From Amphiura filiformis (taxonomy: Eukaryota; Echinodermata; Ophiuroidea; Amphilepidida; Amphiuridae), in assembly GCF_039555335.1 (NCBI RefSeq), contig NC_092642.1, positions 17,017,208-17,081,207 of the forward strand: DNA of 64,000 bases. Reading direction: 5' to 3'. Below the pieces are notes generated by a model. It was not told the DNA's origin, did not search any database, and saw only the letters and a program-made list of their open reading frames with translations. Shown here in pieces: positions 20,190-63,665 of this stretch (positions are counted from its first letter, which is position 1; each line of letters begins with the position of its first letter). Made by a program: the position numbers and the translations under genes.

Positions 20190-23100
20190 TGCTTTGCTTA
20201 CTTACTTGCTTATTTCGGGTGGTTTTCCCGAACCACGACAGCTCTCCATATCCTCCTGTCCTGCATCGCCGTTCCCAGGTCAGATGCTTCCAGTCCTGTG
20301 TCTTGCTTGAGTACATCAACATATGTAAGGAGTGGTCTACCAGGGTTTCTTGTTCCATGCTTGGGTGCCCAGTTTATCAGGTTGGCGACAGGTTCACACT
20401 TGCTCCTGAAACAGTGGCCAGCGAAGCGTGTTCTCCTTTCTCTGATCTTCTCTGAGAGCCTTGGGAGGTCTCCATACAACTCTTTGTTGCTTATGTGCTG
20501 TTTCCAATGGATGTTGTACACTGCCCTAAGCATACGGGTGTAACAGCCGTCCAGCTCTTTAGATAGTTTGGGAGTTATGGTCCAGGCTTCACATCCGTCC
20601 CGGACATCCGTACGTTAACACAGACGCCACTGTTGCACTGAAGACCCTCAGTTTGAAATTCTTTGGTAGAGCAGACTTCCAGATCTTACTTAGGCTGTTG
20701 CATGCTCTCCAAGCAGCTGCCTTGCGTGTTTTGACATCATGCTCTGTGCTAGCCATCCATGCTCCAAGGTATTTGAAGTCTTTCACCTCATCTAGCTTTG
20801 TACCATTATTTGTGCAGATGTTAACTTGCTGATCTTGGTTAAAGGACATGAACTTTGTCTTGGTGGCATTCATCTTTAATCCGACTCTTCCGACTGATGC
20901 TTCTACCCTTTGCAGCAGTTCCTGAGCTTGTTTTATCTCTTCTGACAGTAGGGCGATGTCATCAGCGAAGTCCAGGTCGGTTACCACTTCTGGCCCAACT
21001 CGTCTGCTCTTTCTCCTTTCAAGCTGGAATCCTAGTGCTTCTTCCTTGCCATCTATAGCCACTCTCAAGGCATAGTCAAGCACTATCACAAACAGATACA
21101 GGGCAAGTGTATCTCCTTGCAGAACGCCGGCTACGATGTCAAACAGCTCAGTTTCTCCATCAGGGAGATCACTTTGGCTTTGGTTTTCTTGTATGTCCTT
21201 CCAATGGCATCCACAAGTTGTTTTGGTATCCCATAGGCTCTGAGGATTTGTAGCATCTTGCCTCGGTGAATAGTGTCGAAGGCTTTTCGGAAGTCAATGA
21301 ATGTGATAATGGCTGGTAGATTTTGGCCTTCACTCCTTCTATTATCCTTCTAAGAGCCAGTATGTGGCTGACAGTAGTTCTTCCCACTCTGAAGCCATTC
21401 TGGTTGTTTCTCAGAAGTCCATCAACTTTGGGTCTTATCCTGTTGAGTATCAACCTATTGAAGGTTTTGGCCACTATTGAGGATAGGCTGATGCCACGGT
21501 AATTACCTCCTTGACTTAGGTCTCCTGACTTTGGTATTGGGATTATGTTAAGAATAGACCACTGATCAGGCATTCTTTCTTTCAGCAATGCATCGTTGCA
21601 AAATCCTAGCACCAGGTCATCCAGGTCACATCTCTTTAAGACTTCTGGTGGGATGCCGTCTTCTCCACTACTCTTTCCCTCTGCTATTGCTGTCTTTGCC
21701 TTTGTGTATTCTTCATGGCTAAAAGGACCAACCTCAATCGTGAGATCATCTGTGATGGGCTCTATCGTATCATCTTCTCCCTCTATATCTGGGGAACTTC
21801 CTAGTAGGTCTTTGAAATGATGATACCAGTTGTTAACCCTTTCCATCTGAGTGTCTCCTTTCAGCTGGCCCCTCATTGACGATTTTCTTCCTGTAATGTC
21901 ATTAATCAGTCTCCAACTCTGACTGTGCTTACAGTTGTCATGAGCCATTTCAACTTCTCTCAGCTTGATGTTGAGATCATCCTCTATTGCCTGATTATAG
22001 GCTCCTGCTAGTTCAGACTTTGCCTGATTATAACTGAGCCTGTTGTCTTCAGTTGTGCATTCTTGATATGTCTCATAAGCCTTCTTGATTTTCTGTCTTG
22101 CTGTTGTTACTCTGTGATCACTTGAGAAGCACGCCTTCCTGATTTTCTTTCTAACAGGGATGATCTTCTCTGTTGCTTCTGCAGTGGCGCTTATGAATCT
22201 CTCATATCGCTCGGTTGCATTTTCATTGATGTCTTCTAGAGGCCGGAATCTGTTGCGTACCTCAATTGTGTATTGCTGTTGTAACCTGTTGTTTGAACTC
22301 AGTACCTTCCAGTCGTAGTGTTTCTTTCTTGACAAAGCCTTGCTCTTTCTTAGACTTAGTCTGATCCTTGCTGATACAATCCTATGATCAGATCCTATGT
22401 TGGAAAATGTGCTATAAGCTTCAGCGTTCAGCAAGCTGTTCTTCCACTTTTTCCGAATCAGAACATAGTCCAGTTGATATTTGCTTCCCGTTGGGCTCAT
22501 GTACGTCCACAGCTTTCCATTCCTCTTTCGGAAGTAGGTATTAGCAATTATGAGGTTTTTCTCAATTGCCAAATCTACCATATACTTTCCATTTCTGTTG
22601 GTTGTGTCATGATAGGTATAATTTGCATCTCCAGTTCCAACTCTACCATTGAAGTCTCCTACTATTACAAGGACATTGTGAGCTGGGATGGAATCAATGG
22701 CTCTTCTTAAGTTGTCATAGTGTGCTTCAATGTTGTCTTCATTGTCCACGTTAGTTGGACAATAGGTAACTATTACTGTTGTTGCTGGGTTACCCTGAAA
22801 GTTGGCAGCCAGGATACGGTCTGTGTGTTGTGTCACGCTAGCTAGTGAGCTTTTAGTACTAGAACTGAGAACGATGCCAACTCCGCCAGTTGCTGCACCT
22901 GCTCTATTTCTGACAGCTGAAGTTGTAATTAGCGTCTGGCCAAGGATGTTCTCATATCTGACTGGTTCCTTGTGGACTATACGATGTTCCTGTATCCCCA
23001 GTATGTCTATGTTGTATGCCATTAAGCTGCACACTAGTTCCTCGCTGCATCTTTGTTCTCTGATGGTCCTCACATTCATGGTGGAGATTGTGACAATTTT

Positions 23101-23860
23101 CTTGCAGTTCATAAGGTTACTCCTTTTGCTTCCACATATGTCAGCCTTGTCCCTTCCTTGCGGCTTTGAGGACAAGCCATCATTTGATTTCTCAGAATCC
23201 GTGTCAGCTCCAGGAGTTGGTGTTTTGTAGGGACTCTAACCCTAGTGTAGTTTAGGTTTGCTGTCATAGTTTTTCTTTTGCTGCTTAATTCTGCGGTCGC
23301 AACTCCTACAGAATGGTTTAACATAGGAGTTTGCCTTCTCACAGTTGTCTTGTGGCCGCTGTATAATAATGAGAAATCATTTTATCAACGCCCTTCACTC
23401 TTACCACTTCCGTCTCCAACCAGATGTAGTAAGTTGTACAGGTCTCAGGACTCCCTGCTTGTGTTCACTGACCGTATCCATAGAGTATTTACTATTATGA
23501 AACGCCCTTCTGTCGGAAACAAGAGATTGCATCTCAAAACCGCCTGAGGTAGTGAACTACCTCAGCTATTTGACCCATAGCTGGGGCTTGGTTGATGGGC
23601 GCCAGGGCATGTCCACACGCCGGTGGGCCTGCACACCGCATCTCTGGGGCCCAAAGCTGCTCCGAGATCCCTTACAGTTTCGCCTGGGGCCGTGGGGTAC
23701 CCAGTTACCGTGTGCTGTCGCTGGGAGGCACTGTAAGAGTCTTGATGTAGGAGAGGCTATGTACTGGCAGGAGAAGGCTTACATACTTTGCTTCCCTTTT
23801 CGCCTTACGGCTAGCCAGCGGCAGAAGCTGAAAGCAGAAATTTGCAAGCACTAAACTACA
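20190..23860 (-). mobile_element. RTE-like non-LTR retrotransposon (LINE), decayed
   Basis: On the - strand: a GC-richer 5' leader (about 23860-23180), a coding region with an APE-type endonuclease followed by a reverse transcriptase (23175-20210), then a short tail of AAGTAAGTAAGC repeats (20185-20212), the kind of simple 3' end seen in RTE-type LINEs. Three frameshifts mean this copy is inactive. It sits between the uncharacterised gene and the GPCR. Clade assignment rests on domain order and 3' tail only. Confidence 0.8.
20210..23175 (-). pseudogene. LINE endonuclease/reverse transcriptase, frameshifted
   Basis: The N-terminal part shows APE endonuclease motifs: GIQEHR (catalytic Glu), VIVGDFNGR, LDYVLI and SDHRIV. 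The RT part shows GEDGIPPEVLK, IIPIPKSGD, NYRGISL, NGFRVGRTT and DFADDIALL (FADD, two catalytic Asp). The C-terminus has RRTRFAGHCFRS and NPGRPLLTYVDVL. Three breaks are visible: one base lost near 21322 (after EGVKAK), one near 21164 (after KAKVIS), and about 13 extra bases near 20595 (GGATGT duplicated after LTYG). The protein would copy LINE RNA at nicked chromosomal DNA if intact. Confidence 0.85.
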
Positions 23861-27599: not shown

Positions 27600-27965
27600 T
27601 CAAGGCGAGACGACAACACCAACAAGTTCCACTGGTGAGTTACGACAACACCATCAAGTTCTGCAAGCGAGTTGCGACAACACCATCAAGTCCTGCAAGC
27701 GAGTTCCGACAACACCATCAAGTCATGCGAGCGAGTTACGACAACACCGCCAAGTCATGCAAGCGAGTTACGACAACACCATCAAGTCCCGCAAGCGAGT
27801 TACGACAACACCATCAAGTCCTGCGAGCGAGTTCCGACAACACCATCAAGTCCTGCAAGCGAGTTCCGACAACACCATAAGTCATGTAAGCGAGTTCCGA
27901 CAACACCATCAAGTCCTGTAAGCGAGTTACAACAATGCCGTCAAGTCCCAACGGCGAGTTACATG
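27600..27965. repeat. 32-bp minisatellite, about 11 copies
   Basis: The unit is AGCGAGTTACGACAACACC plus ATCAAGTCCTGCA. Copies from 27666 are spaced exactly 32 bp with point differences. It lies in GPCR intron 3. There are no unique spacers, so it is not a CRISPR array. Confidence 0.9.
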
Positions 27966-28880: not shown

Positions 28881-28939
28881 ATATACCAGACGGTTTATAG
28901 GACCCTATGAATACTTTCGTCATGACAGTACGAACTTAC

Positions 28940-29264
28940 CTCCATCAGACCAACTTGAAATCGTCTGCTCATGAATGCGTAGACAATGAAGTTCAAAGCA
29001 CTCCCTGCATATGCAATAAGACAAGCTGACACTTCCATTCCCGCCAAACCAGCAGGAGACAACCTCACCAGATACTTCAGCAGACGACTTATAAGTGAAG
29101 GCATCCACGAAACGGCGAAAACAACCACCACGATGATCACCATTCTCACAGTCTTATCAGTTTTACTTTTAGTGTTAGATGCTTTATCATCTTTTCCACT
29201 GAGTTCATTCTTCATCGCCTTCTTTTCTGATTTTTTAGCCGTCTTCAGTATGCGATAGTAGCAG
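28940..29264 (-). CDS. GPCR exon part: end of TM5, IL3, TM6, TM7, helix 8
   Basis: It starts at the transposon junction with (T)GCTACTATCGC and ends CTGATGGAG|GTAAGT. A basic IL3 (KKSEKKAMKNELSGKDDK) leads to TM6 (VRMVIIVVVVFAVSWMP) and TM7 (ACLIAYAGSALNFIVYAF), then SRRFQVGLME. The frame is open throughout. Confidence 0.8.
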
Positions 29265-29279
29265 CCCAGTGGGCACAGG

Positions 29280-29560
29280 TTAGGATTTCGACGTTGTATC
29301 AACGTTGATACAACGTCGAAATATAACCTAACCTGATTTCAACCCGATTTCAACCTAGAGATTGGTTGAAATCAGGTTGAAATTTCAACGTCGATACAAC
29401 GTTGAAATTTCAACCTGATTTCAACCATGTTTCAACAAACTTTCAATGCAAAAATTAAGGAGGTTGAAATCAGGTTGAAACTTCAACGTTGATACAACGT
29501 TGAAATTTCAACCTGATTTCAACCAATGTTTCAATGCACAACTTAATGACGTTACATAAA
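29280..29560. repeat. Left subterminal GTTGAAATC repeats of the 10-kb element
   Basis: Many overlapping palindromes: GACGTTGTATCAACGTTG, GTTGAAATTTCAAC, ATTTCAACCTGATTTCAACC. The same vocabulary occurs at the right end (39400-39600). Confidence 0.75.
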
Positions 29561-30429: not shown

Positions 30430-31195
30430 GGTGGGTATGTACACGCGTGCACAATTGTGTTAACAAGCGTTCGCAAATGTTTGCGAGTACGCACTCATGT
30501 TTACAAGTGTTCATGGGTAGGCCTACGCTTGCGTACATTGCCGGTACGCACGCACGTTCGCAAGTGTTTGCGAATACGCATGCGCGTGCGCAATTGTTTA
30601 TGGGTACGCATGCACATGTTCAAGTCTTTATAGGTACGCACATGCGTTTGCAAGTTATTGCGGGTACGCACGCGCGTTCGCAAGTGTTTGCAAGTATACA
30701 CATAATGCATACACAAGTGTTTGCAAGTACAAACGCACGTTCTCAAGTGTTTGGGAGTATACGCACGCACGTTCGCAAGTGTTTGCGTGAATACACTCGT
30801 TCTCAAGTGTTTATGCGTACGCATGCACGTTCGCAAGTGTTTGCAAGTACGCAAGCGTATGCGCAAGTGTTTACGGGTACGCACACGCATGCGCAAGTGT
30901 TGATGGGTACGCACTTGTGTTCGAAAGTTATTGCGGGTACGCACGCGCGTACGTTACGCAATCGAGTTTGCAAGTGTTTTCGAGTACGCATGCCCGTTCG
31001 CAAGTGTTTATGGGTACGCGAAAGTTATTACGGGTACGCATGCGAGTTCGCAAGTGTTTGCAAGTGCACACTCGCGTTCACAAGTGTTTATAGGTACGCA
31101 CGCACATTTGCAAATTATTTAAGGTATACGTACGCGCGTGCACAAGTGTTTGTGAGTACGCACACAAGTGTTTATGGGTAGGCCTACGCACACGC
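30430..31195. repeat. 30-bp minisatellite, about 25 units
   Basis: The unit is roughly GGGTACGCACGCACGTTCGC plus AAGTGTTTGC. It is degenerate, with some double-length units. Because the unit is a multiple of three, long open frames appear in several frames on both strands (for example 30447-31181 +, 30501-30944 -). Alternating purine-pyrimidine stretches such as ACGCACGCGCGT are frequent. Confidence 0.85.
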
Positions 31196-39399: not shown

Positions 39400-39610
39400 T
39401 AAATATCAGGTTAAAATCGGATTAAATTCAGGTTGAAATTTCGGCGTTTAATACAACGTGAAATTCAGGTTGAAATTAGGTTGAAATTTCGACGTTGAAT
39501 CAACGTTGAAATCGGGTTGAAATCAGGTTAGAGTCGATTTGCAAATACAACGTGATTTCAACGTCGAAACGTCAACCTGATTTCAACGTGATTTCAACGT
39601 CGGGTGTGCC
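39400..39610. repeat. Right subterminal GTTGAAATC repeats of the 10-kb element
   Basis: CAGGTTGAAATTTCG, GACGTTGAATCAACGTTG, AACCTGATTTCAACGTG recur and mirror 29280-29560. Confidence 0.75.
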
Positions 39611-39617
39611 CACTGGG

Positions 39618-39998
39618 AGACGATCATAACAGCTAATGGGATTGCGAAAAATGGCGCCAAAACTAAAAGCTCAAATTTTGGCGGAATGAAGTGAATAACA
39701 AGAGCGGCAACAAAGGCGATATTCCATATTCCAAGCAATACCCACTTAATGTTAGTTTTTGTCAAAGTCCGTGACATTGGGTGCAAAACTGCATCATATC
39801 TATCAACTGCGATAGAGGTTAAGTTGAGAATAGATGCTACGGAAGAGAAGTAGAAGAGAAACTGTTCCACTTGGTAAGAAATTCCCGTGTGACCTTGATG
39901 CAGTATGATGCCAACGACAAGCAAAGGAGTAGCCGCTATGCAGACAATAAGATCAGCCACTGCAAGGGATGTCAAGAAGATCTCTGTCAAAGTCCGTT
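39618..39998 (-). CDS. GPCR exon part: TM2 to TM5
   Basis: The acceptor is AATATTTTTTCAG before 39998. It reads ERTLTEIFLTSLAVADLIV (TM2), LVVGIILHQ, YFSSVASILNLTSIAVDRY (TM3, DRY intact), IKWVLLGIWNIAFVAALVI (TM4), FIPPKFE as a short ECL2, then LLVLAPFFAIPLAVMIV (TM5). It is cut at the transposon border within the codon following MIV. Confidence 0.8.
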
Positions 39999-41255
39999 CT
40001 GAAAAAATATTTAAAAAAAATACGAAAATCGTGAATATATAACATAGTATGAAACCCATTTTCAACGACCCAGCGCAGCTGTAGCGTAGCCAGGATTTTG
40101 CTGTGAGACCAGAGGATGATTTAAGCACTTCCCACCACGCCACTGTGTTGACTTGCGGTTAGCACAGCTGTGTGAGTGAACATGACACCACTGCTCGCAC
40201 ATTGCATTGACGGACATGGTTAAATTTGAATTTGGACTGATATATTATTTACAATAAAAACGCATTCAAAATGCTAGTCGATTGCACATTTTATGTTACT
40301 TACAGAAGGTGTGAATTATCCTTTATGCATACATCACTTTTGTTCTGAAATCGACCAAGTAATAATGACACACGCACAATTCTTAAACAACATCTTTTGC
40401 ACAGAATTCAATGGGATTTGAAAAGTAAAGTGGCAGTTGAAACTCTAGTGATAACACGTTTGCAGTGCATGATGGGGCTTCCTTAAATCATCCTCTGCTG
40501 TGAGACTAAAGTTCGGGCTCGTACGTGTCATTCTTCCGTTCGAAGCGAAATTAATTTTCAAGGCAGCGTGCTGATGACGTAAGTAAATGAAGCGGACACT
40601 ATCATGCCTATGTTCACGATATTAAACACAATGAACCTAGAGCTCTTTTCATGTTCATTCATGCATAGATCATATAGATGATCTATGATTCATGTATAAA
40701 TGCACGAACTCCAATGGTCATCAAAGGCATGGAAATAGTAGGCCCCCTAGATGAGATTAGCTACCAGCTCATTGAAATTGTTTAATTGCATAATAAATAC
40801 AATATTGATCACTATACCTGAATATACTAGTCTCAGATTGATCACGCTGAAATTCTAAGCTCAAAATATTTTTTTTGTTTTTTAATCCAAATATTTCTCA
40901 TGATATTGATATACATATGAATTGTAATATCACAATTTACTAATATATAAAAACAGAAGTGGCTGATTTTATCCATATGTTTAAAAACCATTAAATTTGT
41001 AATACTTAATTCAGAGTTTCAAGTTTCTGAGAACAACAACAGTATAGGCCTACGTTCTGTGCATTGAGAATGTTTATAGTCCCTTCTCTCAAAGCAGGCA
41101 CATCTCATTTCATGACGTCAACTTTTTTCTAGGTCAAATCGGTCTTGTTCAAAGGAACTTTTAAACGTCTTATTTTCTCAAAAAAGGAGTCATTTTCAGT
41201 GTCCTCATAATATTAGCTTGCCAATGATATGATGTTGTCCGAGCAATGTATATGA
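39999..41255. other. GPCR intron 1, left part
   Basis: No exon or clear repeat was recognised. Short palindromic ATCATATAGATGATCTATGA occurs at about 40668. The rest of the intron continues to 42294 with MITE copy 6 inside. Confidence 0.35.
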
Positions 41256-41481: not shown

Positions 41482-42294
41482 TTAAGTCTTACCAATAACT
41501 TACAATTTATACTGGGTGGAGGGTTGAAATGAAATAAACATCAAAATACAATTTCAGCGCATCTTCGTTAAAATATAGTACCCAATTAGTTACCGGGCAT
41601 GTAAAGCTGACTATTAAAAAATCGACCTGGCAAAACATGATAAATGCAGCAAGAATTGCAACAGCCAATACTTCTTTTCACATCAGAAGTAAAATGGTGA
41701 TGTATGTGTTTCATATCAGAAGTAATGAAATTGTGTCTTTTGTTCAAATTTATCAGGGCATTAAAGATCTCTTTCTAATTAAATGAACAGATGCAAAGCA
41801 AAATTATTTCCACATGATCTATTTGTGCCCAAACCAGCACATTTTGACATTTGAATGAAGTTGGATGGATGCAGATAAAATTGTAACCAATTAGTTACTG
41901 AATGACAGAACATTAATTCATAATCCATTCTGCGTCAAGATCATCATGATTGGTATATACAATTTAGAAGTTAGATTTCCTGGATCAATAAAAAAAGGCG
42001 CACATCGTAATAAGAAGCACACCCCTCCTTGCTCCAAAAAGTTTTTATACCATCAGAATTTCAGGAAACTATAGAGACTAAGAACTACTATTTGTGTGTA
42101 CTTTCTTGCCGATTCCTTCGTTTGCCAAAGACATCTTCCAATTTGTATTATGCATGTTCTGTCAACAGAATAGCCTATGGCACGCGGTAATATAATTATG
42201 GCAATTGTCATGATTGTAAGCTTTTTTTCGCGGATATCTATAATTAATCCTTATTACAAAAATAGGATGCTAGGATCACTCTATATGTTTTTAC

Positions 42295-42451
42295 CTATTT
42301 TCCTTCTTGAGATAACCGCGATAACCAAAAGGTTGCCACTAGTTCCCACCACTATTATAATCGTCGCTAACACCACAAACAGCAGCATAATATCGTGTCC
42401 AAATCCAGGCTCAGGTTCGGCACCAGCCTGGCTCTGGTTCACTTGTACCAT
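42295..42451 (-). CDS. GPCR first coding exon: N-terminus and TM1
   Basis: ATG at 42449-42451 opens MVQVNQSQAGAEPEPGFG with an N-glycosylation sequon (NQS). TM1 follows: IMLLFVVLATIIIVVGTSG, then NLLVIAVISRRK. The donor is AAAATAG|GTAAAAA. This is the first ATG in the receptor frame. A different-frame ATG at 42549-42551 begins an EP-rich peptide that overlaps it, so the true start is uncertain. Confidence 0.65.
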
Positions 42452-42551
42452 TGAGGTACCATTGCCAAGGTTCCCCTTCTGGTTCCGGCTCAACCTCTGG
42501 TTCAGGCTCCACCTCTGGTTCGGGTGACAAAGGCTCGGGCTCAGCAGACAT
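42411..42551 (-). other. Overlapping 46-codon EP-rich ORF at the GPCR start
   Basis: ATG at 42549-42551 opens MSAEPEPLSPEPEVEPEPE, then NGTSEPEPG, and stops at 42411-42413 inside the receptor exon. The EPEPG motif appears in both frames because GAACCnGAGCCnGG is present twice, 22 bases apart. It may be an upstream ORF, or the original receptor N-terminus put out of frame by a repeat change. Confidence 0.45.
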
Positions 42552-43930
42552 GATAATTTAGGAGGTCGTATACTAAAATCTGTGGAAACTGTGAGAAGAA
42601 AATATATTGATATTTACAACAATTATATAAAAAAAAGTAAATTCTAAGTCAATCTTGAAACACTTTATGTTTATACATGTGATTTTGGGATGCACATTGC
42701 CAAACACAAAAATACATTTGCGATATCCATCAACTTTTTTTTTGCGCATCAGTATGCATAATATACAGTAGTGTTATCTACTGAAGATAGCAGTTTTGTT
42801 CATAAGCTAAGTTTGGTTTAAAAGCCTGCATGATGAGACATTAAAGCATGCAATGAAAAAAAACCCGTTGAACAGTTTATTTTTTCACATGTCCATTATT
42901 AGACATAACAAATTCATCTTGACTTACGTTTCAAGTTGACAGTGTTGTATACCCCAGAGTGAAAAACATCTTGGCGAAGGTATTAAAATTCCGTGAAAAT
43001 CTCGATCCGGCCACTGATTAATCCACTAATAGCTTATTAATAGTCACGATAGTAGGATTTTTTTCGCGAACAACCACCATTTCGCTGAAATTCCAATACA
43101 AGCACTATTTTTAAGAATTCCAAAACCAAAGCTATGTTTGTGTATACTCAGAGAGTTTTTGTCGCAGATTTCATCATTGTTGTTCACGTGCGGTCTTCAC
43201 ATTTAGCTACATTTCATAAGACGTAAGACTGAGATGCAAATTTGTACGGTTGGCAAATCGACATCTGATATTATCCCTGCCTGCATGCGCGAAGCAAACT
43301 GGTCTAACCATGCTAACGTTGCTCGCTTGTATAAAACTGCCCGCCAATAAGACAGTGCTTTATTATTTCGACCAATAGTAGCAGGCGATTTTACTAATGT
43401 AATTTTACCATATAGAATTACAGATTCATACCAATTTTATACAATTTACATATTAAATGCACATTAAAGATTCGAATGACTTTATTTGGAACCGGTAGTG
43501 AAATAAGGTTTCGAAGTTTTCTGTCTGAAAGTTGGAATGTTTACGCACACTGGCATTTCCTATAACTCAGCATCACATGATGGTTTAATCTCAAAAGTTT
43601 GAATGCGTTTATTTTTCTCCGATTCATTTCTATCAATAAACAAATAGTGACTTAGCATAGCAACATATAACCTTGATATAAATAATGACAATGGACTGAT
43701 AATGCATTTTAAGAAAGAACGTTTCGTAATCCAAAAGCGTGGCAAAGTATCTAATATGAGTAAAAATCATATTGACGTCATCATTGTTATGCTATATTTG
43801 TTCTACTTTTTCGCATTTGATACCCTTTATCATGATTATTTTTTACGTGTATACTCTTACGGGACAAAAAGGTTCTATTAGTTGCACTTTTTTTCTATGA
43901 GTCTTTAGTTCCGTAGCTTGTTTAGTTTGT
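42552..43930. other. Non-coding stretch upstream of the GPCR
   Basis: It presumably holds the GPCR promoter and 5' UTR. No core promoter motif can be assigned confidently and no repeat was resolved. Confidence 0.3.
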
Positions 43931-51939: not shown

Positions 51940-52008
51940 TCATGAATTAGGTGTTGTTAGGTTCAGCTGTGGTGGCGGTTCCTCTTTGGTCCTCCGTAGC
52001 TCCCATAT
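51940..52008 (-). CDS. USP39: USP39 terminal exon
   Basis: The acceptor is CAACAAATCCAG before 52008. It reads IWELRRTKEEPPPQLNLTTP and stops TGA at 51940-51942. IW continues the conserved AYIQIW end of the USP fold; the tail is lineage-specific. Confidence 0.88.
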   Translation of the reverse strand: MWELRRTKEEPPPQLNLTTPNS

Positions 52009-55000
52009 CTGGATTTGTTGAAAAGAGAAAAGGATAAAGATAATTCCATGTTCCAAACTGACATTGATTGATGAGTGTAATAAAGCCAGATTCAAATAGC
52101 ACAATTTCATACTGTCACTGTGCTTCACATCAAGTTAGCTGTTCATTTTTGGTATACAAGTCCACGAATGACAACAAGCGATGAAGCCAAAATTTTGTTA
52201 CAAGCTTTTAAATGGTGTACTGTAAAAGTGTACATATTTCTGAGCATTAATTATCATGCTTTTCATGCTCAATGCAGCCACCATGAAAAAACACATGAAT
52301 ATGTTATTTTTTGTATGTCTATGTAAGAAAACTCAAAATCACAAATTTAAAAACAAGTGTAGTAGCTCAAAATCCTTTCTAAAACCTTTTAAAGAAACAC
52401 TCTGACAATCACAACATTATGCCTTATATCTTAGAAAAATAATCATCAAGTACATTACAAATCACATGGTTTTATTTTACACAAACTCATATTGGCCATA
52501 AAAATTAATAAAAACAGCCACCTCTCAACACGCAATATTCAAAATTCCCGGGCACTGAAATTGTCTAGTGCAATGACGTCTCCCAGTAATACAATGAAGG
52601 CTGACGACACAAATAACCATTACGTCATTGCGCTATAAAATTTTGGTGTAGGAATTTGGATTATCGCGTGTTGAGAGCCAGCTGTTCTTTTTCTTGTTTA
52701 TGGTCAATATGAGTTTCAAATTTAACCATGTGATTTGGGCTTGATAATTATTTTTCCAACATATAAGGCATAATGTTATTATTGACTTCCTTTAATATGA
52801 GCAATATAGGTGGGACTTTGTGTTCTTGTGTGCTCACTATGATAGTCAGTAGGAATCAAAATGGCAGAATACTACACTTCCATTTTATCAACACATAGCA
52901 TAATAATTAACAAAAGTATGTCAGTATATGACACCTTAATCCAAGCCAACTTTCATCCTTGAGAAAGATTTGGGTCCTTATGCACAAAACAAGTTAGATC
53001 AGGTCTAACTCTAAACCTGGTCTAAACAATGGGGTAAAACAAAGAGTACCGACTTCACCATGTTTGTTTGTCACTCATGTAGTGCAAAATAGTGCACCTC
53101 TGGATTTATTTCCCTGGGCATAACGAAATAATCCAGAGGTAAACAATTTTACATTCCATAGTGACAAGCAAATATAGATCTTAAACTTATACAACTTACC
53201 TGTATATATGCTTCTGAGAGTGTGATAAGCTGTGGAAGGATGTCAGCCACGTGTAGATCTTGAATCTCATACCATTTTCCTGTACCCTGTCAATGCATGA
53301 AGAATCACAAAAACAAATTATACTTACAATTACATATTTGTTGGTCTTTATTGGTTCTCCCTTTATTGGCAATTGACCTTTTCATTAAATCCTGAAAGCT
53401 TCTGCAGTTGGTTCCTGCATACTTCATGCTGACATCATGCGCACATCATTTGTAAACATCCTCACAGTACTGATGTTCGCATTGGCACAAAGGCTTTCGG
53501 GACTTACCGAATGGGCAATGATATATATTGCTTACCTTGTGCAATACATGAGCCTTGAAGGTCCCTTTACCAGCCCCTGGTTCTCCCTCATGTACTATGT
53601 TGGCAATCAAATCAATAACATATGATATAATGCTTACCTTGTGCAATACATGAGCCTTGAAGGTCCCTTTACCAGCCCCTGGTTCTCCCTCATGTACTAT
53701 GTTGGCAATCAGATCAATAACATATGATATAATGCTTACCTTGTGCAATACATGAGCCTTGAAAGTTCCTTTACCAGCCCCTGGTTCTCCTTCGTGTACT
53801 ATGTTGGCAATCAAATCAATAACATATGATATATTGCTTACCTTGTGCAATACATGAGCCTTGAAGGTCCCTTTACCAGCCCCTGGTTCTCCCTCATGTA
53901 CTATGTTGACAATCAAATCAATAACATATGATATAATGCTTACCTTGTGCAATACATGAGCCTTGAAGGTCCCTTTACCAGCCCCTGGTTCTCCCTCATG
54001 TACTATGTTGGCAATCAGATCAATAACATATGATATAATGCTTACCTTGTGCAATACATGAGCCTTGAAGGTCCCTTTACCAGCCCCTGGTTCTCCCTCA
54101 TGTACTATGTTGGCAATCAGATCATAGTTAGTAAATGGATGTACATCCCTAACAGCCTTGTCTGTTGACAGGTACTCGCCAAGGTCTATGTTCCTGCAAA
54201 AACACAAAATGATAACATGATGTACATTGTATCTTACCTCATATAGTGCTTGAATATGTCCTTGGTTTACACTTGTGAGTGAGGACTGAAAAACAGGGTT
54301 TGAAAGTGACAGCACAAAAAAAATACATGCATGCAACTTTTTTTGCAGACTACGGCAACTACCTATGCAACTGCTATTCTATTGAGCATCATTCTAACAG
54401 GGTCAAACACAGGATTGTTTTAAAATTTCAAATATCAGACACCGATTAAAGGGTTATTTGGACATAACTTTGCAGAATCAATTGTGCAGAATTAATTTTG
54501 AAGAAAAATCCATCACAATAATTGCACATAAGTTCACCAGTCTGTCAACAGTAAACTGACTGCAGTCATCATTGTGGATATATGCCATTTGAATGCCAAA
54601 CAGTAGCCTATAATGGATATTGTGTTGTTATGACCTTTATTTGAGAATTTGATACATTTTTGAGTTGAATATAACCGTTACAATATAATTCAACATCTGT
54701 GTAAGGATAGAAACCACAGATATTTTACATTTTGGAGATTGTACTATATTTGCATGTTAAATAAGGTTTTATTTAGCTTGTCTAAATAGAACCAATTTAC
54801 CCCAGCAGAGAATGCTTTGGTCATTGCGTTGCCATAGCTGCCTTGATTTGTTTACGATGCCAATCGTTGGTATCCCCGTTCAGCCAATGGGCTTTCTTGG
54901 TTCAAGTGGAAAATCTGTGACGTTTGATTGCCGTGTAAAATCGTCACAATTTGTTTGCTGTTACTCAGAGAGGATCGGAAAAATTTTCTTTTGCAAATAA

Positions 55001-58000
55001 AATTGTTTGGCGGTTTATTTCCTTATATTATTTCTTAATCATGTTATGATATCAATTCTGATAATATTGCCTAATAATTAGGCTAATATTATGCTAACTT
55101 ATAGTATGTTATGTTAAATTAGCTTTCAGTGGTACTTTACCGGGAAGTAATGGCTAGGGGTAGGGTTTGCTCTCCGATTACTCCGGTCAGAATATATTAC
55201 CTAATTAGCTTTCAGTGGTAGGTTTACCGGGAAGTAGTGGCTAAGAGTGGATTTGCTCTCCGATGTACTCTGGCCCTAATATATATTATGTACAGTTAAT
55301 TAGCTTTCAGTGGTAGGTTTACCGGGAAGTAGTGGCTATGGGTAGGGGTTGGTCTCCGATTTTACTCAAGTCCTAATATATATTTTATACAGTTAATTGG
55401 CTTTCAGTAGTAGGTTTACTGGGAAGCAGTGGCTATGGGAAGCTTTACCCGGGTCCCAATATACATTTTATATATATTTCAGTATGTTAAGTTAGCCTTT
55501 AGTGGTATTTTACCGAGAGGTTGTGGCTAAGGGTACTTTACTCGGTCAATATCAATAAAAGCATTTAGCATTATGAAATCGTAGAAATTAAGAAATTATT
55601 GATGGTATATCAGCTGGTATATGTATAAAGAAATAATAGTTGCGAATAAATGATCCTCTTTGAGGGCAGACAAGTCCTCACTATATTTTAGTTCATATCG
55701 GATTATTCTCAGTCTTGGGGTAATCTGCCATTTTCTGGCAAAAGTGGATTTATTTTGACTGAAAAAACACAAGCGAAGTGAAAAAGATTTGTTTCTAGAT
55801 TATGGTAATTTGCATCAAGTTTTTGATTTTGTCACCCAAGGACTTACTTGACAGGAAAGTTGACAATAGTAGGGTTCTTCTCCACAAAGAATGTGTTCTT
55901 ATTGAAGCGTTTCATACACATGATGAGATATGGTGGCAGCTTGGTCAACACAAATCTCTTTACTGTTGAGTCTCTGTAGGTCTTGTATTCCTGTATATAA
56001 AATTAAAATCAGTTTTAGGTACATAACATTTTATAAAAAGAACATTAATCAAGAAATGAAATAGCTTCACTATAAATGTAAAGTGTATTAAGCTGTAATA
56101 TTTGAACAGTTCTAAGTCATTCACAATAGCACAATGTGTAATGAGATAGTTGTATATTTGATTTGTTCATAATACACATATGCTGAAGTTGGTGAAAATC
56201 TTAATTTCATACGTTGCCAGATGTTGTTATAACCAGTGTCTGCACCAGTTTGTTTTGCAATAATTGCTAAAATATTATAATATACCATGCATCATATAAT
56301 ATCTCTTTGTGTATCTTACCTTTTCTGTGACCCCATCATATTTTGCCAGTAGTGAAGACAGTGGAATCTGAGGGATGATGTTCTGTTCAAATTCATCCTT
56401 AAACAAAGGTGCTGATGGGATATCCAAGGAGAGGTACAAGAATGGGGTGTCTTGTACAGTTTCTGAAAAGAAAAAGAAGATTTGACTCACAAGTTACAGT
56501 TTCTTGCATTTTGTTGTTAAGTAGTATATAATTTTTACCATCACTATTAGATTCAAGTTTCTGCCCTAACCATCCATGAGATCACGTCCTTCATTTGGAA
56601 TAATGTGCAAAAAGTTCTCTTGCCCTTTGTACCTACAGGCAGATTCAGACAAGTTACATGTCAGATAGTTTTTGCTATTTTTTTGCCAGGAAAAAGGTGT
56701 TTTACCAAGTGGAAACAACTGTGGTTAAACTTAATTCTTTTTCGCCTGCAGCCAAAAAACCTGCAAACCCTGAATCTGTACACAACTTGGTGTTTTTGTG
56801 ATGCATTGTCATTTTATCCTTATGCAGAAAATGTGAATTTTACCAATTGATAATTTCAATCAGAAGATATCATGGCAGTTTTATGTTATCTACCTATTTT
56901 CATGACAACACACAGAGCTGTAATTGTGCTCCTTGCACAATTCTTGCGCTACTATGGCACTTTTGACATGCCTGTAATGATCATTTGTTATAACCAGATA
57001 TGATTGATTAAATTTCTATGATAGATGCTGCTTAAGGGGGTACTACACCCCTGGCCAATTTTGTGCCTATTTTTGCATTTTACTCAAAAATTATAGCGCA
57101 TTGGTGACAAGTAAGATATGTATATTATAGGGACAAGGACTATTCAGCAAAATAGAAAAAATCAGCAACTCAAGTCAAGTAAACTGAGCTCAAAAAGAAA
57201 CTTATAATTCTTCACAAGGTCATACCTTGAAATCCTGTCCATCAAATTGAACCAAAATTACACACAGGTTTACTTCAATACTCTACTCTTAACACATGTC
57301 CGTAACAAAGCAGTTATCCAACTGACACAACAGCAAAATACACTGACATAGAACAGCTTCCTGGACCACATTCACAGCCCAGCCCTGTTTCATGAAAAAA
57401 GTGTATGAAAAGCAGAAAGCAGCACCATTTTATCATCTGTGCAAGGATCTTGTGTGCATTCTCACAGATTTTTTGTGCTGGGTGCCAAATGTTGGGCTGT
57501 GAAAGTGGAGGAACTTCCAGGAAGCTGTCCCATGACAGTGCATTTTGCTGTTGGGTCAGTTGGACAACTGCTTGGTTACTGACATGTGTTTTGAGTAGAG
57601 TATTAAAGTAATCATGTGTGTAATTTTGATTCATTTTGATTGACACTCTTTTAAGATATGACCTTGTGATTCACAAGTTGTGAAAAATTATAAGTTTCTT
57701 TTTGAGCTTAGTTTAGTTATTGATTTATTGATCAAATATTGGGTTTCCCTCATTTTTGACTGTAACTCCACAACTGTTGTCTGTGCTGAAATAAAATTTC
57801 CAGTGTAGTAGTTGTAGTCCTTGCCCCTATAAGATACATATCTTACTTGTCACCAATGTACTATAATTTTTGAAAAAATGCAAAAATAGGCACAAAATTT
57901 GGCAGGGGTGTAGTACCCCCTTAATGAAGCTATAGTCTTGTATTCAAATGAACACAGAAATCAGTTTCAGGTATCATATGTGGAATGATGTTTGAACTTA

Positions 58001-61000
58001 GATATATGCAGAGGTCACATGAAGAGACGGTTTGATGCTATTTGATTGATGTGATCCGTGTACAACTTTGTTTTTGGTACATTTATAAAACTTTGACATA
58101 CAATAGGCAACAGTGTTCCTGCTGAGACTGTATGGCATGTTTTGGTGTAGGATTTGTTTGAATTGGCACAAAGCCTTCCAGGAAGAATAAGAAAAAAAGA
58201 GGTTTTAAGTCCAATTTGACCATTTATTTATTGAGATTTTTGATTTCCCCTTCAGGGGAACATTGATACAATTATAACCACCACTGGCATAATATGTGTA
58301 CATGACAAGAAAGTCAGTGCATTGCTCATTCACACTGTGCTTAACTTTGTCTTCTCTACATGTTTTAAAGGTTGGACTCAGCGGGGATTGAAACCCAGGC
58401 CTCACAATTACCAGTCAAGAGTTATACCCCTACACTATCAGAGTTCACAACTGGTACTCAATCAGATAATTCAAAATGCAGGATGTGAGAGACTGGTATG
58501 TTGCCACATATAATAAAAGTTTTGGAAAGAAAAAAAGCAGATTACCTTTGAACTCTTCTGTTTTGAGCAGTTCTTTCTTCTCTTTCTCAGATATATCCAT
58601 AGGCAAGACCTTCCTTGAGTAGACCTTCATACGGCCTTGGAATGTCTTGTAGAGGTAGCTGCTTCCCGCTTTCCTGTTTCCTCCCAATGATGCATGCATC
58701 GCATTAAGAAACCAGGAGAGGAATTCAACAGGGTCGCCTGGTGAATGAAACAAGAGTTTGATTGTAATTATTATGTATTTCAATATAAGAAGTTACTCAA
58801 AAACATTTACCGGACAATTGCATATCTAGTTGGTATGATGCAGTGATAATCTTGTAATCTCTTGCTTGGGGAGCGACAAGGGCAGAAATGCCTTTGTACC
58901 ACCAAAAGTTGATCAGGTCATCACCTTCTACAATCAGCATAATACAAAAGGGCAGTTTATAGCAATCTTGGATTTGTCACTCAGTATGACCGTGATGTCA
59001 TTGATATTATTAATATGATATATATACAGTCATAATGCATTATAATCTGATGCTGTATTATATTAGACTTAATTTCAACATGGAAAGCCCAATTCAATAA
59101 AAGTTGTTCTTCCTTGGGGCTGTGCATATACAAACATACATGTACAAAATAACAAACAATTACAAAAGCTTATATTATCTAGACTTATACATACAAAATG
59201 TATTACAAACTCAAAATTATTAATTGTCAAAAGCCAAAATGATACTTATGGTTACATACTTACCATGTTTATTAGACATATCTAGACAACTATATGAAAC
59301 ATAACAGTCAAAATGTTTCCAAGAATAGATGCAGCATTGCTTTGCTTTTTTAAATGGTATATATTATAATATAAAATTCCACAAGTTCATCAAAATATGC
59401 TAAATTGTGTGTAAAATAGGTTTCTTAACAATAAGGCAAACATCAGTGATTATAACACTGGGTTGGTGGACTACTGAAATTATGCAGTCTTGATAAAATT
59501 CCTGTTGCTTCATATATATATAATAATATCATATATAATAAACTTATTAACATTAACATAAGTTCAAGTTCAAGTTTATTTGTTTTCATCTCAATTCACA
59601 ACAAAATTAAACAAATGGAAATTAAAGATAAGAAAAACTTAATGATATACAGCACTTGCAACATCTACAACTTACACTACTTTAATTTTACTAGCATAAT
59701 TTCATAGTTTTCTTTACCTTGTGCTGTGATTTGGAATTTCTTCTTGCTGCACAGTACCACTGCCTGTAACATTTCATGAGGACTGACATGAGCCCTGAAT
59801 TCATTGGATTCCACACCACTTGCACCCAACATCAGCAACTAACACTGCTTTAATTTTACTAGCATACTTTCATAGTTTTTCTTTACCTTGTGCAGTGATT
59901 TGGAATTTCTTCTTGCTGCACAGTACCACTGCCTGTAACATTTCATGAGGACTGACATGAGCTTTGAAGTTCCTTGGATTCCACATCTTTCTCATGAGTT
60001 CTCCAAATCTCTGAGCCAAGAGATACATGATATCACCAGGAGGAAGCTTGATGTTGATGTAGTTATTCTCATCTAGGAAGTAATTTCTCAGTGGAGTCAC
60101 ATGAGCCAAGGCCTATTGGAATAGCAATAATAAGAAGACTTCAGATGTAAAACCAGTTTTTGTACTAATTTTTACTTCAGGTAATGAGATACCTTTGAAT
60201 TTGACATTGCTAAAGTTTGTTCGGCTTATAATTGGATGAAAATTGTGGGTTTTTTTATTGCGCGAGTCAATAAAATCCAATCTTACCAGTATCTGCTGGG
60301 CTCAATGCTAACTTTAGCATCAATCCCTGTTTTGTTTGATTGTTTCATTTCTGCTTTTACCTGGGTTACTCATTCAGTGGATGTTTTAAGGTATCCTGTG
60401 TTCTTCCATGGGGCCCAGGGGATTACCTTTTGTTGATTTAATTTGCGAGTATTGCAAGTAGCCAAAAATAATGCAGTTTCAAGCTAGTCTCTACAACACT
60501 GAACTCAAGTTTGCTGTGAAAATTGACGAGAACCAAAAGGGCCTGCGTCTTATTTTCACACTGACAATAAGCCAAATCGGCTTTTGGGACACTTTGCCCT
60601 CTGACCTATTGGGAAAATTCAGAAAAATTGTTTTTTGCGCGTTCACAATATCATCCAAAATGTTTTACAAGAATGAAAACAAACTCAAAAAACATTAATT
60701 ATCTACAAATTAATTATTTGAATATTTTTAATGATAACATTATGACAATAATGAATAAATTAATAATAATTACAGCAATTTCCCTGATAAGTGTCCCAAA
60801 ACTGCTCTCAAAAACCGGAAGTTACAATGGCAATTGGGCTTACATAACACAACAATAGCAATATTTATCAAAACTAAAGGAACAAACCAAAAGTCCTAGT
60901 TCTAGTAGTAACTAGATTTATTTCATAGCTGATCCTGACTCTCCCAAAGTGGGTCAAAATAATATCAATGCTGTTGAGAGCATAGGCGAAACATATTAAC

Positions 61001-63214
61001 TGACATTTGTAACTCCTTCTTGCAACGATGACACCAGTTTCGTTCATAGGACTGTATCAAGGTTTCCTAACAATAGGCAGCATGTGGCATAACATTGTAC
61101 CTCAAACTATACTAATTCATATAAATAAATGTGATTCATTCAACTTACATGTAGTAAGACATTGCAGTAGTCATTAGCTTTGATGTTGTTGAGACCTACA
61201 ATTCCTGGCAGGTATGTTGTCCCATCATAGGCACGGGATAACTTACTACTCCTCTCTAACCTCCTGATTAACTGCTTGGTAAAGGTAGGCTTCAGTACAT
61301 ACTGAAAAGTAATAAAATGATATTAAAGTGATTTCTATGGCCTATTACTAGTATGACTTTATGCAGGGTAAAAAGGGGATTTGACAGAATGTTCTAAGCT
61401 TCAGGGTTACAAGCTTGGTGCAAGATTTGTGTAAATCAAAAGCTGGTTCTTGTAATTCAAAGAGTAGATACTTTGCAAGAATCAAATGTGACATGATCAA
61501 GGGGAATGAGTCATATGTCAGCAATTTTCAATTATAAGTTTTTTATATCATTTTCTGGCAGTTCACGCATGCTACATTTTGATGCAAGCCACATCAAAAT
61601 CAGACATCTCGTTACCGAGTTATGAGCAATTGCTCAATGGCTGAAAACAATATCAAACAAAAGAATTTGAACACTGTTTTTGCCAATATCTCAAAAGCAA
61701 TATTAGCGACATCCACTCATTCCCCTTAATTACATCACATATGATTACTATATATTTCTGGGGCAAAAATTAAGGCTGATTCTCATACTGTGTGATGATA
61801 TTCTAGCATTGATGCTTGGCACTGTCTCTGATTTCCATGGTTATGAAATCATATTAGTGCCCCGGCGCTAAAGTCAGTCACTTCTGGTGGAGCTTATTGA
61901 AACAATGAATAAGTCAACATGTGGAATTTACACACAGAAACATTCAAACTACAGAGTACCTGAAGTCAAAATCAGTCACAAGGTATAAATGGTATATTTA
62001 TTTAGACAATTGATCAATTTCATTGTTCAGACACATCGAGCAGGGGGCGCTTGACAGTCGTCACTTGGAATATATTTTGTATAGTGCGCTTACAGGAAGG
62101 GCACTTATTAGGTTGAATACAGTATTTTCAAATTGACACTTACTGTGATGTCCTCCAAGGACGAATCAATGATTTCATAGTTGTCTGGTAAACAGTAAAA
62201 CTTGAGTGTGTGAAGATTAAGGAACACATGGTGGTTGACTTGTACACTGTGTGTGTATGCATGCGACTTCTGACCACGACCTGGAAGGGGACAAACAAAC
62301 ATACAAACAATTTTTAACCCTACCTCTATATAATCTTTCAAAGCAAAACCACTGCTCATCCCATGTGATGCCATGATGCAATTACCCTAAGTCATATACC
62401 GTATTGTTTGTATTAAACGCTACCCCTCTAATAAACGCCCCTCCAATTTTTCAATGACAGAGGGATAAAAATTGCCATACCATAGTGTGTGTAACTTCAT
62501 TAAGCTTAAAACTTGCATCAGTCATGCAGTGATGACAAAACTGATGATCAATAAATTGCTTGGGAAAAAACCTATTATGACTCTAACTTCCATCAAGTTC
62601 ATTGCCCAATTATGGTAGAATTTTACTAATTTCATAAGATTCTTGTTTACGGATGTAATTTCATTATATTTACCGCAAAAATATCATGTTCCATACATTT
62701 CCGCGTGCACGACCATCTTGAATTTGAACCCGGAAGTAGGTGATTCTTCCAAAGTTCGGAGCCAATTTTGAAGGTTTTTTTTCACTGAAAATTCACTTTT
62801 AATAAACGCCCCCATTTGGACAAATGCAACGCCTCTGGGGCATTCTCACTTTCGTTGGCTGGGCCAACAAAACACCTGTAACTACCTCTTCTCTCCTTTT
62901 TTGTTCTTTATATCCTTTCCGATAGCCCAAAACCACTTCTAGCGTTGGGGTTAATACATGCATATGGTATATTTAAGACTAAGGACATATTGATGGTGAA
63001 CTTGTTTTAGTAGTTTAAAAGGAGTCATGAACTTATAATTAAAACATGAACCTTTTTATTTTGAAATGTTAAGTAGCATTTTTTTTTTCAACCACATTCC
63101 ATTTGTGTTTTTTTCTTACCTTGGAAATACTTTCCACACACAAGACATGCGTACACATTCAGATGGGAGAGAGACACTGAACACAGCTTCTCAAAATCAA
63201 AATCTAACACAGTC
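51940..63214 (-). CDS. USP39: USP39, U4/U6.U5 tri-snRNP ubiquitin-specific-protease-like protein (5' end beyond window)
   Basis: Ten exons on the - strand: 63120-63214, 62144-62280, 61149-61301, 59887-60112, 58546-58737, 56320-56462, 55848-55990, 54046-54193, 53200-53286, 51940-52008. All borders are GT-AG and phases join exactly, giving about 463 residues. Order: ZnF-UBP (VLDFDFEKLC, CLVCGKYFQG, KSHAYTHSVQ, HTLKFYCLPDNYE), then the USP fold (YDGTTYLPGIVGLNNIKAND, PHEMLQAVVLCSKK, PVEFLSWFLNAMH, LPPYLIMCMKRF, YEIQDLHVADILP). The usual catalytic Cys position reads NDYC, as in USP39, a nuclear pseudoprotease needed to assemble the tri-snRNP for splicing. The C-terminus (RRTKEEPPPQLNL) differs from vertebrates. 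Two exons carry tandem duplications across their donor sites. Confidence 0.93.
52393..52797. mobile_element. Foldback MITE in the last USP39 intron
   Basis: CACAACATTATGCCTTATAT at the left is inverse-related to ATATAAGGCATAATGTTATT at the right. ATCACATGGTTTTATTTTAC pairs with AACCATGTGATTTGG. It is a relative of the element at 36338-36523. Non-coding. Confidence 0.65.
53200..53286 (-). CDS. USP39: USP39 exon (USP His-box region)
   Basis: 29 codons, phase 0 at both ends, between TTGACAG and CAG|GTAAGT. It reads GTGKWYEIQDLHVADILPQ then LITLSEAYIQ, the end of the USP domain. It is joined directly to HVLHK of the preceding exon. Confidence 0.92.
53531..54123 (-). repeat. 102-bp tandem repeat spanning a USP39 splice donor, six copies
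   Basis: CTTACCTTGTGCAATACATG (+ strand) begins at 53531, 53633, 53735, 53837, 53939 and 54041: exactly 102 bp each time. Each unit is the last 78 bp of the exon at 54046-54193 (DLIANIVHEGEP...HVLHK) plus 24 bp of its intron (read through as VSIISYVI). All six keep AAG|GTAAGC. The unit is 34 codons with no stop, so any of the six donors keeps the frame into the next exon. No acceptor-like AG with a pyrimidine tract exists within a unit. Copies differ by only a few substitutions. Confidence 0.95.
54046..54193 (-). CDS. USP39: USP39 exon with the duplicated donor
   Basis: The acceptor is GTTTTTGCAG before 54193; G completes the AAG codon. It reads NIDLGEYLSTDKAVRDVHPF, then NYDLIANIVHEGEP, and ends TFKAHVLHK|GTAAGC. 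The coordinates use the first donor, which gives the canonical protein length. Five further donors follow downstream at 102-bp steps, the last with its exon end at 53536. Confidence 0.92.
54194..55847. other. USP39 intron with a tandem repeat
   Basis: About 55100-55555 holds five degenerate ~90-100-bp units carrying TTAGCTTTCAGTGGTAGGTT, TACCGGGAAGTAGTGGCTA and CTAATATATATT. No exon is seen in the rest. Confidence 0.65.
55848..55990 (-). CDS. USP39: USP39 exon
   Basis: 143 bp between TATATACAG and TCAA|GTAAGT. It reads EYKTYRDSTVKRFVLTKLPP, then YLIMCMKRFNKNTFFVEKNP and TIVNFPVK, the central USP core. Confidence 0.92.
56320..56462 (-). CDS. USP39: USP39 exon
   Basis: 143 bp between TTTCTTTTTCTTTTCAG and AAAAG|GTAAGA. 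It reads TVQDTPFLYLSLDIPSAPLF, then IIPQIPLSSLLAKYDGVTEK. Confidence 0.92.
57036..57920. mobile_element. TTAA-flanked MITE carrying a nested foldback element
   Basis: GGGGGTACTACACCCCTG at the left and CAGGGGTGTAGTACCCCC at the right are exact inverses, flanked by TTAA (57032-57035 and 57921-57924). It is a sister of 43938-44313. The extra length is a second inverted-repeat block at about 57184-57715 (GAGCTCAAAAAGAAACTTAT against ATAAGTTTCTTTTTGAGCTT). It lies in a USP39 intron. Confidence 0.75.
58546..58737 (-). CDS. USP39: USP39 exon
   Basis: 192 bp between ATTCACCAG and CAAAG|GTAATC. It reads DPVEFLSWFLNAMHASLGG, then YKTFQGRMKVYSRKVLPMD and KEKKELLKTEEFK. Confidence 0.92.
58738..59886. 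other. USP39 intron with duplicated exon end
   Basis: Contains the 169-bp donor-spanning duplicate at 59690-59812 (listed separately). The rest is AT-rich and without a recognised exon or element. Confidence 0.5.
59718..59812 (-). repeat. Duplicate of the 3' end of the USP39 exon at 59887, with its donor
   Basis: It matches the exon at 59887-59981 and reads EFRAHVSPHEMLQAVVLCSK then KKFQITAQ|G with the same AAG|GTAAAG donor. The intron start is also copied (TTTAATTTTACTAGCATA twice). Period 169 bp is not a multiple of three, and reading through from the first donor meets a stop within five codons, so it is probably silent unless used as a separate exon. Confidence 0.85.
59887..60112 (-). CDS. 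USP39: USP39 exon
   Basis: 226 bp between TTCCAATAG and CACAAG|GTAAAG. It reads ALAHVTPLRNYFLDENNYIN, then LPPGDIMYLLAQRFGELMRK and WNPRNFKAHVSPHEMLQA. Its 3' end is duplicated at 59718-59812. Confidence 0.92.
60113..61148. other. USP39 intron
   Basis: AT-rich intron with no recognised exon or repeat. Confidence 0.4.
61149..61301 (-). CDS. USP39: USP39 exon (USP Cys-box region)
   Basis: 51 codons, phase 0, between ACTTTTCAG and CTACAT|GTAAGT. It reads YVLKPTFTKQLIRRLERSSK, then YDGTTYLPGIVGLNNIKAND and YCNVLLH. The position of the USP nucleophile is Asp, not Cys, consistent with an inactive protease. Confidence 0.93.
61478..61745. mobile_element. Foldback MITE with TGTGACATGATCA / TGATnTnnTCACA-like ends, copy 1
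   Basis: TGTGACATGATCAAGGGGAA at the left is inverse-related to ATTCCCCTTAATTACATCAC at the right. CTCAAAAGCAATATTAGCGA recurs in the copy at 63412-63665. Non-coding, in a USP39 intron. Confidence 0.6.
62144..62280 (-). CDS. USP39: USP39 exon (ZnF-UBP, second half)
   Basis: 137 bp between CCCCTTCCAG and ATCACA|GTAAGT. It reads RGQKSHAYTHSVQVNHHVFL, then NLHTLKFYCLPDNYEIIDSS and LEDIT. The His residues and Cys complete the zinc-binding ZnF-UBP domain. Confidence 0.94.
62281..63119. other. USP39 intron with a possible old repeat
   Basis: CTAATAAACGCCCCTCC at about 62430 and TTTAATAAACGCCCCCATT at about 62800 are related motifs that may mark the ends of a degenerate element. No exon is seen. 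Confidence 0.35.
63120..63214 (-). CDS. USP39: USP39 exon (ZnF-UBP, first half); first visible exon
   Basis: 95 bp between TTAATGTTTCAG and CCAAG|GTAAGA. It reads VLDFDFEKLCSVSLSHLNVY then ACLVCGKYFQG. The first base completes a split codon from an upstream exon that is not in 63215-64000. Confidence 0.92.
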
Positions 63215-63411: not shown

Positions 63412-63665
63412 ATGTGACATGATCATGAGTCGCATGTCGACCCTAGTCGAAAAAGAGATTTACATTATGTTAATAAAGAAGACATGTAGAGCTTTCAGAA
63501 ACTGAAAAACCCCATGTTGATACGACTTTTTTTTGCCAATTTTGTCAATTTATCAATCGCTGAAAATAATATAAAACAAAAGAATCTTAACACTGTCTTT
63601 GCCAATATCTCAAAATCAATATTAGCGACATCCGACTCATTTCCCTTGGTCGTGTCACATATACA
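63412..63665. mobile_element. Foldback MITE, copy 2 of the TGTGACATGATCA family
   Basis: TGTGACATGATCATGAGTCG at the left and CGTGTCACATATA at the right are inverse-related. TTTGCCAATATCTCAAAATC and AATATTAGCGACATCC match copy 1 at 61478-61745. Confidence 0.6.

Follow-up and report, generated by a model that had tools for sequence, protein, structure and literature searches.

Exon 8 of the USP39 gene described here ends in a 102-bp tandem array that carries six identical in-frame 5' splice sites, with a reading frame that stays open past all of them and without any internal AG that matches the acceptors of the gene itself. The likely explanation is a VNTR-like duplication across the boundary between exon 8 and intron 8, probably young, in which donor 1, the site in the native position, is used almost always while donors 2 to 6 stay latent.

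The USP39 gene in the window

The window, i.e. the whole 64-kb stretch of DNA analysed, carries on its minus strand a clear orthologue of USP39/hSad1, a protein of the U4/U6.U5 tri-snRNP. Ten exons join in one frame and encode a 463-residue fragment that ends at a stop codon, the 5' end of the gene falling outside the window; residues are therefore numbered here from the first exon seen. The fragment carries both a zf-UBP domain (PF02148, 2.3e-19) and a UCH domain (PF00443, 3.6e-39) in Pfam, and USP39 is its top match throughout, the best hit being human USP39/hSad1 in tri-snRNP structures (PDB 3jcr_V, E 6.1e-226, residues 2-449 of 463), so that the identity given to the gene in the initial annotation is upheld. 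No frame break was seen in the ten exons and USP39 thus looks like a working gene.

We placed the exon ends by eye, guided by splice motifs and the reading frame; protein alignment supports this placement. Exons 1 to 7 of the window lie at 63120-63214, 62144-62280, 61149-61301, 59887-60112, 58546-58737, 56320-56462 and 55848-55990, and the last exon starts at 52008, all of them on the minus strand. Exon 8 (54046-54193, minus strand), delimited by the exon model and by alignment to human USP39, measures 148 nt with donor 1 and encodes NIDLGEYL...AHVLHK; its acceptor (...GTGTTTTTGCAG/GA, the slash marking the splice junction here and below; last intron base 54194) scores 10.6 when left out of the matrix described below. 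Exon 9 (53200-53286, minus strand; GTGKWYEIQDL...), recognised by alignment to the human protein, is the shared 3' partner of all six donors. The intron upstream of exon 8 (intron 7) is 1654 nt long, and intron 8 measures 759 nt with donor 1.

Alignment to USP4 shows the catalytic Cys, His and Asp all replaced, with Asp, Thr and Gln in their places, at the positions which we take to form the catalytic triad. The junction between exons 8 and 9 falls between the former His and the former Asp. As far as these presumed triad positions hold, the array does lie near the pseudo-active site, as had been proposed.

Elsewhere in the window, Pfam matches mark a broken retrotransposon of non-LTR type (20592-23235, minus strand), whose endonuclease and reverse transcriptase domains fall in two open frames that overlap each other, and segments of a rhodopsin-family GPCR (28898-29338 and 39586-40158, minus strand) which are possibly exons of a single gene. 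An open frame at 42284-42613, with no Pfam match, resembles by eye a first transmembrane segment.

Anatomy of the 102-bp array

Tandem Repeats Finder and a repeat search place the array at 53523-54124 on the minus strand, with a period of 102, 5.9 copies, 96% matches and 0% indels. The repeat takes in the last 78 nt of the 148-nt exon 8, the donor and 24 nt of intron. There are five full 102-nt units and a partial sixth, which consists of 78 exonic and about 13 intronic nt and gives way to single-copy intron. The initial annotation had described six repeats of 78+24 bp at 102-bp steps; the spacing and the six donors stand, whereas only five of the units are full and the copies are not all identical.

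The six AAG/GTAAGC donors are all spaced 102 nt apart, their first intron bases being 54045, 53943, 53841, 53739, 53637 and 53535. The exact 9-mer AAGGTAAGC occurs six times on the minus strand of the whole 64 kb, each time as one of these donors, and not once on the plus strand. Donor 1 (54040-54048), in the native position, gives the exon of 148 nt and the intron of 759 nt. Exon and intron would measure 250 and 657 nt with donor 2 (53938-53946), 352 and 555 nt with donor 3 (53836-53844), 454 and 453 nt with donor 4 (53734-53742), 556 and 351 nt with donor 5 (53632-53640), and 658 and 249 nt with donor 6 (53530-53538), after which the single-copy intron follows; all six lie on the minus strand.

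No stop codon is present in frame from exon 8 through all six donors, so that identical donors with an open frame between them, as first reported, were found in six cases out of six. With donor n in use, Lys 412 of the fragment would be followed by n-1 additional blocks, each of 34 residues; both the block length and the junction agree with the earlier claim of 0 to 5 such blocks between HVLHK and GTGKWYE. The bridge peptide is AHVLHKVSIISYVIDLIANIVH, and the insert block itself reads VSIISYVIDLIANIVH... The insert is a repeat of conserved segments of the UCH domain and has a hydrophobic start (mean Kyte-Doolittle value of 2.05 over its first 15 residues).

Candidate acceptors inside the array

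An acceptor matrix was built from the ten USP39 acceptors, each true site being scored with itself left out. Between donors 1 and 6 we scored 40 AGs and none of them exceeded -5.2, whereas the ten true acceptors range from -1.2 to 10.6. The weakest of these is the acceptor of exon 9 (-1.2 left out, 13.1 in sample), and the margin over the AGs of the array is therefore real but not wide. Within this comparison the earlier statement that the array contains no internal acceptor proved correct, none of the 40 AGs scoring as high as any of the gene's own sites.

These scores bear on the possibility that the array represents an AGGT-type intron gain or is spliced recursively; each AAG/GT would then act as the acceptor for the donor of the previous unit, and the 102-nt pieces would be removed stepwise. 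Every unit does have AAG/GT, the motif required by the Rogers model (excerpts of PMC4974935 and PMC2891723), and these junctions score highest among the 40 AGs that were compared, reaching the 68th percentile of 3309 AGs on the minus strand. Their score of -5.2 nevertheless lies below all ten true acceptors, they have no clear pyrimidine tract, and a native intron with its own acceptor is already present downstream. Judged by a ten-site matrix, stepwise removal and AGGT-type intron gain are thus unsupported, and we consider them highly improbable.

A second donor duplication in USP39 and the expectation from chance

A further partial duplication (59659-59985, minus strand; Tandem Repeats Finder and repeat search) comprises the 3' part of exon 4, its donor (GTAAAG) and adjoining intron, with a period of 169; its two donors are located at 59886 and 59717. 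Read in frame past the first donor of exon 4, the bridge gives QGKEKL and then meets a stop, so that the second donor cannot serve the normal protein; synthesis of the full-length protein already requires, therefore, that a downstream donor copy be ignored. Exon 4 is the best control within the gene, a duplication across a donor that arose regardless of coding use.

Tandem arrays of period 60 or more number ten in the window and amount to 5102 bp, or 8% of it, as merged by hand from 44 rows of Tandem Repeats Finder output, rows with a period below 60 outside such arrays being dropped. When ten arrays were placed at random, 0.67 of the nine USP39 donors fell inside an array on average, with at least one donor in 48% of the trials and at least two in 16%. 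The actual count is two, the donors of exon 8 and exon 4. Two arrays lying over donors in one gene are accordingly not striking (P 0.16); as a repeat, the 102-bp array is far beyond chance. Given a duplication at this place, an open frame is expected in about one case in five (1/3 for length times 5/8 for introns, 5/8 being the proportion of the other USP39 introns that are open over their first 8 in-frame codons).

So cheap a frame weighs against the reading in which donors 1 to 6 are all used, in a regulated or stochastic manner, to yield proteins with 0 to 5 blocks of 34 residues, perhaps with feedback from USP39. It is favoured by donors that are all identical, in frame and without an intervening stop, and also by a report that the choice of splice sites changes with the level of USP39, both in mouse liver and in cells of human liver cancer (PMC10567755, in the part available). 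It is opposed by the nature of the insert, which would duplicate conserved UCH segments and begin with a hydrophobic stretch, and by the selection against in-frame tandem sites in folded regions of human proteins, described for events of 3-9 nt (PMC2279118, excerpt). On balance we regard this reading as unlikely. We give less credence still to its fuller version, a ladder of 0 to 5 blocks set jointly by donor choice and by the copy number of the allele and closed into a USP39 feedback loop.

The window is rich in other repeats. Additional tandem arrays occupy 27610-27948 (32-bp unit, 10.6 copies) and 30467-30950 (nested 30/60/90-bp units). Two 88-nt copies, 90% alike and 1919 nt apart, lie at 61627-61714, inside a USP39 intron, and at 63546-63633, and perhaps represent a dispersed repeat.

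Differences among the copies and history of the array

Seven sites vary among the copies, six of them exonic and one intronic. The exonic differences are all transitions and five of the six are synonymous; the exception, a change from Ala to Val, belongs to copy 3, the copy that ends in donor 3, while copy 4, with donor 4, has four private exonic differences that are synonymous without exception (4/4). With transitions only, 34.6% of changes in the segment are expected to be synonymous, which gives P 0.021 for at least five of six and P 0.014 for four of four, modest values that assume independent changes. No difference separates copies 1, 2 and 5 in their 78 exonic and 24 intronic nt. Copies 2 and 5 thus form an identical pair, and a single exonic step lies between copies 3 and 6.

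This excess of synonymous changes fits two readings: the downstream copies could be translated, or copy 4 could go back to another allele in which it formed the coding end of the exon. The former, under which the five synonymous differences out of six would count in favour of an isoform series and against the almost exclusive use of donor 1, has to accommodate the sole nonsynonymous difference, which sits inside the array, in a copy that is intronic under the donor-1 model. We prefer the latter, in which unequal exchange would have moved the exon end of another allele into the intron as copy 4. One reason is that the sole amino-acid change, too, belongs to a downstream copy; the other is that similar units recur as 2-3 and 5-6, an order to be expected from exchange between arrays. 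The low divergence of the pairs 2/5 and 3/6 beside that of 1/4 is not fully explained by exchange. A simpler origin, with two three-unit alleles joined end to end (1-2-3 + 4-5-6), was tried and rejected: copies 1 and 4 differ at 5/78 sites against 1/188 for the other pairs (Fisher P 0.009), a divergence for which end-to-end joining would need extra homogenisation, and this scheme is kept as a sketch.

To judge by the likeness of its copies the array is probably young, and variation of copy number between individuals is plausible for an array of this kind. The same likeness, with copies 1, 2 and 5 indistinguishable, is what could be expected if the copy number or the array itself were an assembly error at a repetitive or heterozygous locus. 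The seven differing sites, some of them private to copy 3 or to copy 4, and the continuation of both flanks into single-copy parts of USP39 argue to the contrary and make an artefact very unlikely in our opinion, although a genuine array may still have been assembled with the wrong copy number.

Choice among the six donors

All six donors of the array obtain the same score (13.4) with a matrix derived from nine donors. Donor strength is thereby ruled out as a discriminator, and only position and context can decide. With 1654 nt in intron 7 and 759 nt in intron 8, exon definition and hence the use of donor 1 are expected. The size of the exon points in the same direction, since it measures 148 nt with donor 1 and 250 to 658 nt with the later ones. 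In minigenes with two identical strong donors and flanking introns of 365 nt the upstream donor alone was used in five of five constructs, a result from exon-defined constructs that favours donor 1 and speaks against an isoform series (PMC9225289, excerpt). Among human donor pairs of near-equal strength the upstream site is preferred in 60% of events overall, long introns going with the upstream and short introns with the downstream donor; before matching for strength, the downstream donor prevails in about 60% of 4,171 human events and is the majority choice in all four architecture classes (same source, in part). The protein SRSF1 is able to shift the choice between such donors (PMC5585400, excerpt). 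These rules were drawn from human genes and may not hold in this animal.

The intron of 249 nt that donor 6 would leave is the main reason for doubt about donor 1. It agrees with the proximity rule that PMC9225289 credits to Reed and Maniatis, as well as with the downstream preference beside short introns reported in the excerpts of that article; both would let the last donor win, the normal protein then having five additional blocks (170 residues). Such an outcome would require an exon of 658 nt, human USP39 aligns over the junction without an insert, and the analogous downstream choice in exon 4 would truncate the protein. Donor 6 is also the lowest of the six in predicted accessibility. Taking both sides together, use of the last donor seems to us very improbable.

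Predicted RNA accessibility, given as the probability of being unpaired, ranges from 0.001 to 0.016 for the array donors as against 0.002 to 0.35 for eight other USP39 donors. Donors 1 (0.011) and 2 (0.016) are the highest of the six, donor 2 being slightly above donor 1. The predicted values are low throughout the array and do not set donor 1 clearly apart from the others, and they depend too much on the model to be given weight.

The initial annotation had set the counting of donors against the constant use of one of them. Of these alternatives, it is use of donor 1 nearly always that is favoured by the minigenes, the ABCA7 repeat discussed below, the exon lengths and the second donor copy of exon 4. 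We therefore return to the duplication with donor 1 in almost constant use, for which the following course of events can be proposed. A tandem duplication would have taken in the 3' end of exon 8 together with the beginning of intron 8, leaving a donor in every unit. The spliceosome would define exon 8 from its acceptor to the nearest strong donor, which is donor 1; the 148-nt exon and the normal USP39 would be made, and donors 2 to 6 would remain as intronic spares with trace use, perhaps giving trace in-frame isoforms. As the unit amounts to 34 open codons, trace use of donor 2 would result in an in-frame insert and not in a frameshift, and this may explain why the array is tolerated. Growth of the array and swapping of its units probably proceeded by unequal exchange between copies and alleles, which could shift units between the coding position, that of copy 1, and the intron.

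Comparison with known systems

The USP39 array can be regarded as a natural version of the classical competing-donor experiment, with six identical in-frame donors at constant spacing in a core splicing gene. On competing donors of this kind, PMC9225289 refers to Lang and Spritz (1983). Each donor choice would give rise to a countable, translatable and presumably NMD-escaping mRNA; the contest between exon definition and intron proximity should therefore be readable from RNA data of the usual kind, free of the bias that NMD brings into the case of ABCA7. Beyond this, the array suggests a route by which unequal exchange across a donor may turn a coding segment into an intronic one, and the reverse. 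Use of more than one donor would amount to an unusual means of producing spliceosome-protein isoforms that vary in size. No title or abstract start among the literature matches listed dealt with such an array, which does not prove that none has been described.

Tandem exon duplication with mutually exclusive exons likewise places duplicated exon sequence within an intron, and this is its likeness to the USP39 array. There, each copy has its own acceptor as well as a donor; here, within the limits of the same ten-site score, no duplicated acceptor accompanies the donors, and the copies are therefore not separate exons. The AGGT intron-gain cases (ATP2A1, potato RdRp and Drosophila) resemble our array in being partial tandem exon duplications with AG/GT. 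They differ in that a new intron arises through an internal acceptor, whereas in USP39, by a test that consists of scores from a ten-site matrix, no AG of the duplicate scores as a usable acceptor and an old intron gains spare donors.

Closer in arrangement are the two-donor minigenes, which also have identical donors in series before one acceptor. Those are two artificial sites 52 nt apart (PMC9225289, excerpt), as compared with six natural sites 102 nt apart in USP39. Subtle tandem sites such as NAGNAG share with the array the in-frame nature of the alternatives, but are 3, 6 or 9 nt apart (PMC2279118, in part), in contrast to the 102 nt produced here by duplication of a segment.

The closest natural case is the 25-bp VNTR in intron 18 of human ABCA7, whose unit starts with a donor GT and whose first GT is the canonical donor of exon 18 (PMC5954066, excerpt), and it is by anatomy that we would place the USP39 array beside it. 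As in ABCA7, tandem units lie directly at the end of an exon, the first donor is the exon's own and every unit contains a donor. The ABCA7 repeat comprises between about 12 and 427 units, skipping of the following exon correlates with its length, and 2 +/- 1% of transcripts keep one unit; the retention product is subject to NMD (all from the available part of PMC5954066), so that the 2% may understate donor use, whereas the USP39 inserts, being in frame, would escape this fate. The ABCA7 unit is intronic and, at 25 bp, not a multiple of three, so that its retention shifts the frame; that of USP39 is 102 bp long, in frame, and includes 78 nt of coding exon. This in-frame coding unit is the feature that distinguishes the USP39 array from the ABCA7 VNTR.
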